Source: SAR86 cluster bacterium AG-422-E19 (GTDB taxonomy: Bacteria > Pseudomonadota > Gammaproteobacteria > Magnimaribacterales > AG-339-G14). Taken from it: 64,000 bases of DNA. Positions 1,837 through 51,909 of the stretch are shown here, in pieces; positions within the stretch are counted from its first letter, which is position 1, and each line of letters starts with the position of its first letter. The translations under genes were made by a program, and so were the position numbers. The notes beneath the pieces were generated by a model. That model saw nothing but the letters and a program-made list of their open reading frames with translations, was not told where the DNA came from and made no database searches. The DNA lies in contig QCMR01000002.1 of assembly GCA_003213595.1 (NCBI GenBank), forward strand, positions 254,015 to 318,014, read 5' to 3'.

Positions 1837-4800
1837 TCAATGGATATCTTGAAGTTTTTTTACCCTCCAATCAACCTGATTTTCTATTACCTTGCAGATC
1901 GCTCTTGCTCCTTCAATAGTGGTAGAACTACAAATCTTCTGATCCAAAGCGGTTCTTCTTATTGATGCAGAATCCGTAATTGATTCTCTGCCTTCGGTGG
2001 TATTGACCACAAGACTGATTTCTTTGTTTTTCATCAAATCAACGATGTGCGGTCTGCCTTCCAAAACTTTATTTATTTTCTTTACTTTAAAGCCCATGTT
2101 TTCGAGATCTCTGGCAGTTCCTCTGGTAGCTACTAACTTAAAGCCTGAATTGGTTAAGCTTTTGGCAAGTTCTTCTAGATAAGTTTTGTCTGTATTTCTG
2201 ACGCTCAAGAACGCAGATCCCTTCAAAGGAATCGATACCCCAGCGGCTATTTCAGCCTTTTCAAATGCTTCGACAAATGACGGTGCTATTCCCATGACCT
2301 CACCAGTGGATCGCATTTCCGGACCCAAAATGGGATCAACTGCTTGGAATTTTTCAAAAGGAAGCACTGCCTCTTTTACCGAATAAAATTTGGGTTTTTT
2401 GAATTTAGTGATCCCTAAATTTTTTAAACTTTTGCCGGACATAACTTGAGCGGCAATTTTCGCCAATGGAGAGCCAATAGCTTTTGAAACAAAGGGAATG
2501 GTTCGGGAGGCTCTAGGATTGACTTCCAAAAGATATATTTTTTCATTTGCATAAGCTAATTGAATATTGACCAAACCAGAAATTTTCATATTCTTGATGA
2601 CTTTAATTGCGGTGGCTTCAATTTCTACAAGCAGTTTTTTATTAATACTGTAAGGAGGAATGGAACAAGCCGAATCTCCAGAGTGGACTCCTGCCTGCTC
2701 GATGTGTTGAAGTACACCACAAATAATATGATTTCTGCCATCGCTTATTGCTTCGACATCAAACTCAATCGCCAAGTCCAAGAACTTATCAATCAAAACC
2801 GGATTTTTTGTATCAACGTCCAAAGCTTCGGTTAAGTATTTTTTGAGATCCTCATCGTCGTAGACAATTTCCATGGCTCGTCCACCCAAAACATAAGAAG
2901 GTCTTACGACGACTGGATAGCCAATTCGATTGGCAATTTTAATCGCTTGGGCATTGTTCGATGCCATGCCATTGGCTGGCTGAAGCAATTTGTTTTCTTT
3001 GACAAATTTTTGAAACCTAGAGCGATCTTCAGACAAATCGATTTGATCAGGAGAAGTACCTAAAATTGGAACGCCATTTTTTTCTAAATCTTTAGCAAGT
3101 TTGAGAGGCGTTTGTCCGCCGTATTGAATGATCAAGCCTTTGGGTTTTTCCACTTCGTAAATTTCTAAGACATCTTCTAAAGTGATTGGCTCAAAATAAA
3201 GTCTGTCAGAGGTATCGTAATCGGTCGAAACCGTCTCTGGATTGCAATTCACCATGATGGTTTCAAAACCCTCTTCTTTTAAAACTTGAGCTGCGTGCAC
3301 ACAGCAATAGTCAAATTCAATTCCTTGTCCGATTCTGTTGGGCCCGCCGCCAAGAACCATGATTTTTTTCTTCTTGGTGGGATTGGATTCACACTCATCT
3401 TGATAAGTTGAATACATGTATGCCGTCGAAGTTTCAAATTCAGCAGCACAAGTATCTACTCTTTTGAAGACTGGTTTGATTTTAAACCTTCTTCTTTTCG
3501 CTCTAATTTCCTTTTCAGACTTACTAGTTAACTCCGCAATTCTTTTGTCAGAGAAACCAATTTTTTTTGCTTCAAGGAATAAATCTCGAGAAGAGAGAAA
3601 TTTTTTAGATTTAATTATTTTTTCGTAATTAATGATTTCTTGGACTTCTTTTAAAAACCAAAGATCAATACCAGTAAAAGCTTGTATTTCATTGATATCC
3701 ATCCCTTTTCTAAAAGCCTCTCCAATAAACCAAAGTCTCTCAGGAGTCGGGGTAATCAGTCTTGGTTTGATGGCTTTGATATTATTGGCTTGTTCAGGTG
3801 ATTCAAAGCCTGAAGAGCCAATTTCCAAACCACGCATGGCTTTTTGTAATGATTCTTTAAAGTTAGAGCCAATGGCCATAACTTCTCCAACCGATTTCAT
3901 TTGCGAGGTCAGAGTAGGATTGGCGCCCGCAAATTTTTCAAAGTTAAATCTTGGAATTTTTGTGACTACATAATCAATCGTTGGCTCGAAAGAGGCAGGT
4001 ATGGAATCTTTACTGATATCGTTTTGCAATTCATCCAAAGTGAAACCAACGGCAAGTTTTGCTGCTATTTTGGCAATTGGAAAACCAGTAGCTTTGGATG
4101 CCAAGGCAGAAGATCTGGAAACTCTCGGATTCATTTCAATTACGACCATCTCCCCATCTTCTGGGTTGATGGCAAACTGAACATTGGATCCACCGGTTTC
4201 TACTCCGATTTCTCTTAGGATCGCCATTGAGGCATTTCGCATCATTTGGTATTCCTTATCGGTCAGTGTTTGTGCTGGCGCTACCGTAATCGAATCGCCA
4301 GTGTGAACTCCCATGGGATCAAAATTTTCTATGGAGCATATAATGATGCAGTTATCCGCTTTGTCTCTGACAACTTCCATCTCATATTCTTTCCAACCTG
4401 CAAGGTACTTATCAATGTAAAGCTCTGAAGTTGGTGATAAGTCCAAGCCTCTATGACAAATCTCTTCAAACTCATCGCTGTTGTAGGCAATTCCTCCGCC
4501 AGAACCACCCAAAGTAAAGTTGGGTCTAATGATGCATGGATAGCCAACCAACTGTTGAACCTCCCAACACTCCTCAATGTTGTGTGCCAGTTTAGCCAAA
4601 GGAACTTTAAGGCCAATTTTTTCCATTGCTGCAGCAAAGAGTTCTCGATCTTCGGCTTTATCGATAGCTTCCTTAGTCGCACCAATCAATTCAATGTTGT
4701 ATTTTTTGAGAATTCCTTTTTTATTCAGATCCAGAGCTACATTCAGTCCGGTTTGACCACCCATGGTCGGTAAAATTGCATCGGGTTTTTCGATCTTGAT

Positions 4801-5031
4801 AATCTTTTCCAAAGATTGCCAGGTAATGGGTTCAATGTAGGTGGCATCTGCCAAGCCAGGATCGGTCATAATTGTGGCTGGATTGGAATTAACCAAGATG
4901 ACTTTGTAACCCTCTTCTCTTAGAGCTTTACAAGCTTGGACTCCAGAATAATCAAATTCACAAGCCTGACCAATGATGATTGGCCCTGCGCCAATGATCA
5001 AAACGGATTTGATATCAGTTCTTTTTGGCAT
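1837..5031 (-). CDS. carB: Carbamoyl-phosphate synthase large subunit
   Basis: 1064 aa, duplicated ATP-grasp, [30 protein letters not shown]. Confidence 0.98.
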
Positions 5032-6139
5032 ATTTATTTACCTGGGTGATGAAAGTGTCAAAGAGCGATTGCAACTCTTGCGGTCCTGGACTTGCTTCTG
5101 GATGACCTTGAAAACCAAACACGCGATTTTTCTGAAAAGAAATTCCTTGAATGGAACCGTCGAATAAAGATCGGTGGGTAATAGAAATATCTTTTGATAA
5201 GGACTTTTCGGAAATCGTAAAGCCATGATTTTGACTGGTTATTGCCACTTCGTTGGTGATGAGATTTTTTACCGGATGATTAGCACCGTGGTGACCGAAT
5301 TTCATTTTTTCAGTTTTCATGCCCAACGCTAAGCCTAAAAGTTGGTGACCCAAACAAATACCAAATAAAGGTATTTTTGTTTCTCTAATTAATCTTGAAA
5401 TGGTTTCTATCGCTTGATGGCATGGTTCTGGATCTCCTGGCCCATTGGATAAAAATACACCATCTGGTTTTTTGCCAAGAATGGTTTCGAAGTCGGTATT
5501 GGCAGGCATAACCTCTACCTCGCATTCGCGATCCACCAACAAACGAAGAATGTTATGTTTGACACCAAAATCAAGAGCGATGATTTTGTATTTCAGTTTG
5601 GGTTTCTTTGTGCCGTAACTTGGCTTTTTCCATAAGTAAGATTTTGCGGTCGTTACCTTGGAAGCCAAATCTTTGCCCTTTAAGCTGCCGAATCTTTCAA
5701 ACAATTTTTCAATATCTTTTTTGGTCTTTTTCTTGTAAGAAATAAAGGCCGGTTGAGAGCCTTTGTTTCTTAAAACTCTAGTTAACTTTCTGGTATCGAT
5801 ATTTTTTATGCCTGGCACTTTATTGGCCTTTAAAAAATCAGCCAAAGAAAGTTCATTTCTCCAATTGCTTTCAACTCGCGTTAGGTCTCTGATTACCACA
5901 CCACTCGCACCGCCAACGACAGATTCGTGATCATCGATATTGGTCCCAACGTTTCCAATATGCGGATAAGTAAAGCAAATGAGTTGATCGGTATAAGACA
6001 AGTCGGTGATGATTTCTTGATAGCCGGTCATTGAAGTATTGAAAACCAGCTCGCCTACTTTTTCTTTGGTGTAACCAAATGCTTCGCCATCAAAGATTTC
6101 ACCTGATTTTAGGATGAGCTGAGCAGGTTTAGCTCTCAT
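5015..6139 (-). CDS. carA: Carbamoyl-phosphate synthase small subunit
   Basis: 374 aa, GATase motif [27 protein letters not shown]; overlaps carB start. Confidence 0.98.
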
Positions 6140-6224
6140 GAAACACCTGCTTCAAATGGGTAAAAAAAAACGCGAACAAAGTAGAAACTATGAATCGCGT
6201 TTTAAAATCTAATGCCGTTTGCAT
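6129..6224 (-). CDS. Putative 31-aa leader peptide ORF of carAB ([31 protein letters not shown])
   Basis: ATG at 6224 lies inside a hairpin strand; the ORF reads through the terminator hairpin and U-tract and its TAA (6129-6131) overlaps the carA start codon region. Confidence 0.4.
   Translation of the reverse strand: MQTALDFKTRFIVSTLFAFFFTHLKQVFHES
6162..6203 (-). terminator. Intrinsic-terminator-like hairpin in the carA leader (candidate attenuator)
   Basis: Minus strand AAAACGCGA-N19-TCGCGTTTT followed by five further T; only polar toward carA. Confidence 0.55.
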
Positions 6225-6242
6225 TAGAATGTGACTCTAATG
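6208..6242. promoter_or_regulatory. Triple inverted-repeat array between carA and map (CATTAGA / TCTAATGC / GCATTAGA)
   Basis: Minus strand CATTAGA-GTCACAT-TCTAATGC-AAACG-GCATTAGA; the middle element is complementary to both flanks. Confidence 0.55.
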
Positions 6243-6277
6243 AAATAACTCTGTAAAGTCCATTAAAAATTTAACTT

Positions 6278-51557: not shown

Positions 51558-51909
51558 GGGGGCGAAATGGATTAGACATCTGTTTTTGAACTTAATGTGC
51601 ATGTCGAGAATGTAACTAACTCGTTAAATGAAGTTACAAAAAAATTAGTTGGCAATAAAGCAAACTACGCTCTAGCCGCATAATCTGGCTAGCTTTCTTT
51701 ATCTAATACCTATTAGGGTAAAAGAAAGTCAATTAATAGGTTGCTCAGAAAAATATTTCTGTGATTTTTCTGATAAGTTTTAACAGAATACTTTTTATCT
51801 ATCCTGCTCATCGGAGAGTTAAAAAAGGAATTTAAAAGATGAATCTAAGCATGTAGAGCTGATAGGGATAAATTGATGGACGCGGGTTCGATACCCGCCG
51901 CCTCCACCA
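51558..51909 (+). ncRNA. ssrA: Transfer-messenger RNA (tmRNA)
   Basis: 5' GGGGGCGAAATGGATTAGACATC pairs with 3' CGCCTCCACCA; T-arm GCGGGTTCGATACCCGC; tag frame GGC AAT AAA GCA AAC TAC GCT CTA GCC GCA TAA; directly after smpB. Confidence 0.96.

Follow-up and report, generated by a model that had tools for sequence, protein, structure and literature searches.

A leader ORF that ends on the carA start codon in SAR86 bacteria: a candidate translation-coupled attenuator of carAB

In three families of the SAR86 order (f1, f2 and f3), carA or its operon is preceded by a short leader that is probably a cis-acting attenuator of carAB, one that would sense pyrimidines through translation of a leader open reading frame (ORF); of the explanations weighed below, this one accounts best for the sequences. 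Comparison of leaders across these families establishes, at the level of sequence, the terminator, the leader ORF, the overlap of that ORF with the downstream start, a 5' hairpin and the promoter spacing. CarAB makes carbamoyl phosphate, which serves the synthesis of both pyrimidines and arginine, and SAR86 are ocean bacteria, abundant and streamlined and for the most part uncultured. If the reading is correct, promoter, RNA and ribosome would together form a complete element that regulates the supply of pyrimidines and arginine and needs no dedicated regulator protein, and the order would offer an evolutionary series in which the terminator is present, the terminator is absent, the element stands before pyrF, or the leader is absent.

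Results

The carAB locus and the sample of leaders

The window, by which we mean the whole stretch of 64,000 nucleotides that was analyzed, comes from a SAR86 genome of 1.1 Mb. The leader, carA, carB and greA follow one another in consecutive order on the minus strand. carA (5015-6139) encodes the small subunit of carbamoyl-phosphate synthase (PF00988 and PF00117; TIGR01368, 460 bits), carB (1837-5031; Pfam CPSase_L domains) encodes the large subunit and overlaps carA by 17 nt, and greA (1353-1832; PF03449 and PF01272) lies 3' of carB. The closest named relatives of the window carA are SAR86 isolates with 97-99% identity. The divergent gene upstream of carA is map, and a promoter-like site for it (TTTAAA-18-TAGAAT, 6201-6230, plus strand) overlaps the carA leader hairpin. 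A tmRNA gene (Rfam RF00023) is found at 51558-51909 on the plus strand of the window; at the leader itself, Rfam gave no match above the gathering score.

carA leaders were gathered order-wide with the pattern TA.A[G/A]T, 8 nt, AATG[C/T], which yielded 117 leaders with the element from families f1, f2 and f3. Conservation at the positions named in the pattern is by construction, and positions 5-8, counted from the -10 box, were left free. One chance match outside SAR86 (L045, Psychrosphaera) was excluded before statistics, and many of the compared genomes are incomplete assemblies. The element was present in every f1 and f3 carA locus examined that had enough upstream sequence. In f2 it stands before carA or, in genera with an inserted pyrF, before pyrF (5/5 checked): at five loci (L212-L216, in genomes G040, G049, G046, G189 and G058) pyrF lies between leader and carA as a pyrF-carA operon, and promoter, hairpin, terminator and ORF all precede pyrF. 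This placement ties the element to pyrimidine synthesis. The leader was absent from the carA loci of a further family, f4 (L134-L141), where a TATAGT box is found approximately 13 nt before the carA start, so that carA itself may be nearly leaderless there. In the f2 genus g8 (e.g. G049, G043 and G055), several carA matches carry one internal TAG, which probably reflects read-through past the gene end.

A terminator maintained by compensatory changes

The window leader contains an intrinsic terminator (6162-6203, minus strand) whose stem arms, AAAACGCGA (6203-6195) and TCGCGTTTT (6175-6167), enclose a loop of 19 nt, 11 of them T, and are accompanied by a T9 tract (6170-6162); 22 nt separate the T-run from the carA ATG (6139). 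The earlier note on this DNA had the leader ORF, stem, loop, T tract and distances correct to the base. The terminator region folds with a dG of -13.5 versus -3.9 in shuffles (z -4.8). A terminator scan of the window, limited to loops of 3-8 nt, did not list it.

Related leaders carry the same structure in different letters. A terminator with 8-9 T was present in 16/16 f1 and 9-10/10 f2 leaders, ending approximately 53-57 nt after the leader ATG whatever the stem sequence, and the stem variants in these families include ACGCGA/TCGCGT, TCGCGATA/TGTCGCGA, ACGCG/CGCGT, ACGGAC/GTCCGT, AAAGCGAAT/GTTCGCTTT and GCGAACT/GGTTCGC. When structure was aligned explicitly (alignment A2), 90.5% of cells were paired versus 31-50% in slid registers, and five pairs, four in the terminator and one in the 5' hairpin, had changed on both sides (28 cells versus 7.7 in column shuffles). 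RNAalifold applied to the whole leader alignment returned only five core pairs, as the helices vary and are not in perfect register there.

None of 13 inspected f3 leaders has a terminator, and this family (e.g. L126-L133, L165-L205) nevertheless keeps the 5' hairpin and the overlap of ORF and carA. Termination therefore cannot be the sole output of the element, and regulation in f3 must act via coupling or another route.

The earlier note had likened the leader to E. coli pyrBI with its UTP-dependent pausing. Under a strict pyrBI/pyrL model, RNA polymerase would pause at U-rich sequence when UTP is low, the leader ribosome would catch up and melt the terminator, and the 5' hairpin would be incidental. 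The anatomy, with an ORF running through the terminator, is indeed the same, and the terminator loop of genus g1 is U-rich. That loop composition is not conserved, however: in g3, which belongs to the same family as the window genus, loops such as AGACTAGAAATTTAGTAC occur, and no conserved U-run lies between ORF start and terminator across f1 genera. This lack of conservation makes the pause model less likely; the model also leaves the most conserved part of the leader, the 5' hairpin, without a role and has no terminator to act on in f3. We rate it as unlikely, and the pausing step of the earlier proposal does not hold up in the comparison.

A leader ORF that ends on the start of the next gene

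The leader ORF of the window (6129-6224, minus strand; ATG 6224-6222, TAA 6131-6129) has 31 codons, and its TAA coincides with nt 9-11 of carA. No Shine-Dalgarno sequence was seen before it or before the other leader ORFs, and its 31-residue peptide has no Pfam match.

Judged from the window genome alone, the open frame could be a chance ORF lying across an ordinary terminator, since it is open no more often than chance would allow (P ~0.54 in shuffles). The order-wide comparison tells otherwise. Among 23 lineages less than 72% identical to one another, 20 have an ORF whose end falls from -16 to +3 nt relative to the carA start, versus 6.4 expected from shuffles in which 5' hairpin and carA start were left intact (P ~1e-11), and openness of the ORF alone, with 8.8 expected, has P ~7e-7, both values taking the lineages as independent despite their shared ancestry. 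The other two frames end on the carA start in 0 and 1 lineages. This comparison argues that the leader ORF is real, and coincidence is scarcely credible as an explanation.

Stop and start overlap as TAATG, TAGTG or TGATG in 58 leaders, nearly all from f3, and in genera g1, g2 and g4 the overlap is mostly in the same register, NTGNNNNNTAA, within otherwise different sequence. At the pyrF-carA loci the leader ORF ends on the start of pyrF rather than that of carA (offsets -3, -10, +4, -10 and -7). Exceptions are g3, in which the ORF stops within the loop of the terminator or immediately ahead of its stem (ahead of the stem in L031 and L113), and L018 and L119, in which it stops shortly before carA; a run in L018 is short by one T, which may be a sequencing error.

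The peptide itself is free to drift. Differences are spread evenly over codon positions (45/53/45), and codon changes comprise 19 synonymous and 90 non-synonymous ones, so that it is translation of the ORF, not its peptide, that is maintained. The ORF, the terminator hairpin (in f1 and f2) and the T-run (8-9 T) are conserved in related leaders, a comparison that the earlier note had proposed. These comparisons indicate that selection preserves the act of translating as far as the next gene rather than any product, and a leader ORF that stays open with its peptide changing freely would be a clean example of this.

CarAB also serves arginine synthesis, and attenuation through Arg codons of the leader peptide would be a familiar way to regulate it. 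Arg nonetheless amounts to 3% of leader residues, with none in 11 of the 23 lineages and no runs, and the element moves with pyrF; arginine attenuation accordingly has a negligible probability.

A different view is that the leader responds to growth rate or to the general capacity for translation, or is under hardly any control, leader translation serving only to get past a constitutive terminator and bring ribosomes to a poorly initiated carA. An AGG resembling a Shine-Dalgarno sequence (6146-6148, minus strand; AGGTG match) lies upstream of the window carA, and such a site is present in g1 and absent in g2, g3, most of g4 and most of f2, where coupling alone could explain the overlap. It would be costly, however, to keep a terminator by compensatory changes merely to pass it; most f3 leaders do have a Shine-Dalgarno sequence for carA and still keep hairpin and ORF; and the parallel carAB leader of Pseudomonas responds to pyrimidine. 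We consider this view improbable.

Promoter and predicted transcription start

The carA promoter, which like the 5' hairpin does not figure in the earlier note, is sigma-70-like, with a -35 box TGGACT (6257-6262, minus strand) and a -10 box TAGAGT (6234-6239, minus strand) separated by 17 bp. The -35 box follows TRGACW at 17 bp before the -10 box in 97/117 leaders, and the remaining leaders have other -35 sequences containing GAC. The -10 box reads TA[A/T/G]AGT in 117/117 leaders, partly fixed by the collecting pattern, and the leader ATG lies exactly 9 nt after it in all sampled f1, f2 and f3 leaders, a spacing likewise set by that pattern. Each f1 genome has essentially a single copy of the promoter-spacing motif, the one at carA. 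A promoter scan of the window did not list the carA promoter because it is weak relative to the E. coli consensus (8/12 match).

Among the positions left free during collection, position 7 is a pyrimidine in 117/117 leaders (C 29, T 88), position 8 is T in 117/117, and positions 5 and 6 are T in 116/117 each. In the window, the predicted start region comprises C7 (6227), T8 (6226), A9 (6225) and A10 (6224), on the minus strand. Transcription start sites prefer purines. Bacterial transcription starts 6-9 nt after the -10 box, mostly at 7 nt (PMC5730371). Given this spacing and the purine preference, the transcript is predicted to begin 0-4 nt before the leader ATG, which would leave no room for a Shine-Dalgarno sequence and make the leader ORF effectively leaderless. 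Reiterative initiation of the kind found at codBA or pyrBI was also considered and is not supported, as T5-T8 lie too near the -10 box for a preceding purine start.

A hairpin over the leader start codon

The 5' hairpin P1, TCTAATGC-AAACG-GCATTAGA (6208-6228, minus strand), includes the leader ATG and is conserved in f1 and f2. In the window it is a perfect inverted repeat with arms at 6228-6221 and 6215-6208 (dG -7.7, z -5.9 versus shuffles). Across 78 distinct leaders, positions 8, 9, 10 and 12 are paired in all, and position 7 is paired as C-G in 18, U-G in 7 and U-A in 52, with one exception. By this comparison, the 5' hairpin holding the leader start codon is the most invariant part of the element. 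It is stronger than shuffles in f1 and most of f2 (z -2.7 to -5.9; one f2 lineage -1.4); the f3 hairpin is no stronger than shuffles (z -0.6 to -2.0). The loop measures 4-6 nt in f1 and f2 and is much longer in f3.

A perfect dyad over the carA start region, between divergent map and carA, might equally be expected of a DNA operator, with TCTAATGC-N5-GCATTAGA binding a repressor at the start site instead of folding as RNA. The change in loop length between families argues for RNA, as the spacer between the arms of a dimer operator would not be expected to grow in this way. U-G pairs occur, moreover, and a genome search allowing up to 3 mismatches found only the carA site with fewer than 2. An operator is therefore very improbable.

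The stability of P1 would depend on where the transcript begins. Folding of the g1 leader from alternative starts gave -7.7 (position 7), -3.4 (A9) and -1.9 (A10) kcal/mol. For f3 the in silico probability that the AUG is unpaired was ~0.01, 0.24 and 0.75 for starts at position 7, 9 and 10; in f1, a start at A9 leaves five P1 pairs, and the AUG is unpaired with a predicted probability of 0.02 at A9 and 0.17 at A10.

Discussion

How the leader might work

Terminator, translated ORF and overlap very likely form an attenuator with translational coupling, where we infer the coupling between ribosome and terminator from their arrangement. Transcription would begin a few nucleotides before the leader ATG, and a ribosome initiating on the leaderless ORF would trail RNA polymerase and cover the 5' arm of the terminator, so that transcription could continue into carA. 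Finishing on the carA start, the same ribosome would couple carA translation to that of the leader. With the leader ORF untranslated, RNA polymerase would stop at the T tract. The earlier note's proposal of an attenuator coupled to the leader ORF at carAB is to this extent well supported, by the conserved terminator with its compensatory changes, by the ORF that ends on the downstream start order-wide and by the single conserved promoter.

Whether the leader ORF is translated would be decided by the 5' hairpin that holds its AUG, and the signal would most plausibly be pyrimidine nucleotides. We think pyrimidines likely because of the Pseudomonas precedent, the pyrF-carA operons of f2 and the absence of Arg codons. 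How they might be sensed is a more tentative matter. When UTP or CTP is plentiful, a start at pyrimidine 7 would yield the full hairpin and mask the AUG; a start at A9 or A10 would shorten the hairpin and free it. Such a start-site switch is a possibility worth considering, given that position 7 is always a pyrimidine, that A9 and A10 are fixed and that the hairpin relies on the intervening bases, in parallel with pyrC and pyrD. One point speaks against it: in f1, what remains of the hairpin when transcription begins at A9 is still predicted to cover the AUG. Joined into a single scheme, nucleotide-dependent start choice would let the hairpin hide the leader AUG, a pyrC-like sensor, and leader translation would then control termination and coupling to carA or pyrF, a pyrBI-like output, with f3 keeping the coupling without the terminator; we regard this full combination as somewhat doubtful. 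If its start-site step were true, two textbook pyrimidine mechanisms would be joined in less than 100 nt.

Comparison with known systems

Terminator-like hairpins within 140 nt upstream of carA were found in 15/52 non-SAR86 loci (L039-L110, mostly proteobacterial), including those of Alteromonas, Halomonas and Moraxellaceae, versus 0.8 expected, and carA leaders of this kind thus appear widespread. In four other marine proteobacteria (L098, L101, L104 and L108) we observed two chained mini-ORFs upstream of carA: a 9-codon GTG ORF lies in a 5' hairpin, its TGA overlaps the ATG of a second ORF of 16-17 codons, and the latter traverses a terminator to finish at the TTG of carA.

E. coli carAB has the same genes under pyrimidine control, which for SAR86 is our inference; to our knowledge, no such leader-ORF attenuator has been described there. 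The E. coli operon is instead reported to use two promoters (tandem P1 and P2) with PepA, PurR, PyrH, ArgR and reiterative transcription (PMC6245113). E. coli pyrBI (pyrL) and pyrE are closer in design, as in both a leader ORF extends into or up to an intrinsic terminator that its translation would prevent. The SAR86 leader differs from these in lacking a conserved U-rich pause stretch, in its leaderless ORF, in the 5' hairpin over the start codon and in the end of the ORF on the start codon of the structural gene.

At pyrC and pyrD, a start with CTP yields a hairpin that blocks ribosomes (PMC7818426). The SAR86 hairpin resembles these E. coli and Salmonella leaders in being 5'-terminal and masking translation initiation, with possible pyrimidine and purine starts, spaced by 2 nt, that would determine how stable it is, and it is likewise placed to block initiation, with a predicted strength that is high in f1 and f2 and low in f3. 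Unlike at pyrC and pyrD, it masks a leader ORF rather than the enzyme gene, and the proposed output in f1 and f2 is termination.

The nearest relative in description is the carAB leader of Pseudomonas. P. aeruginosa carAB is reported to have one promoter, a leader peptide and a leader stem-loop on which the pyrimidine response depends (PMC4997734, citing Kwon et al. 1994), and the same source mentions a short RNA, P32, from the carA 5' UTR of P. syringae. A pyrimidine-responsive carAB leader with a leader peptide has therefore already been reported. Compared by description only, the leaders of P. aeruginosa and P. stutzeri share with SAR86 the single promoter, the carA leader stem-loop, the leader peptide and greA in the operon, and attenuation was proposed there. 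Unlike the Pseudomonas leader as described in these accounts, that of SAR86 is very short, with no room for a Shine-Dalgarno sequence and an ORF start inside the 5' hairpin, lacks the terminator in f3 and is also found before pyrF. As far as the sequences and these accounts go, three features are new in SAR86: an effectively leaderless ORF that starts inside a 5' hairpin, a series across the order that extends to f3 without a terminator, and the placement before pyrF.
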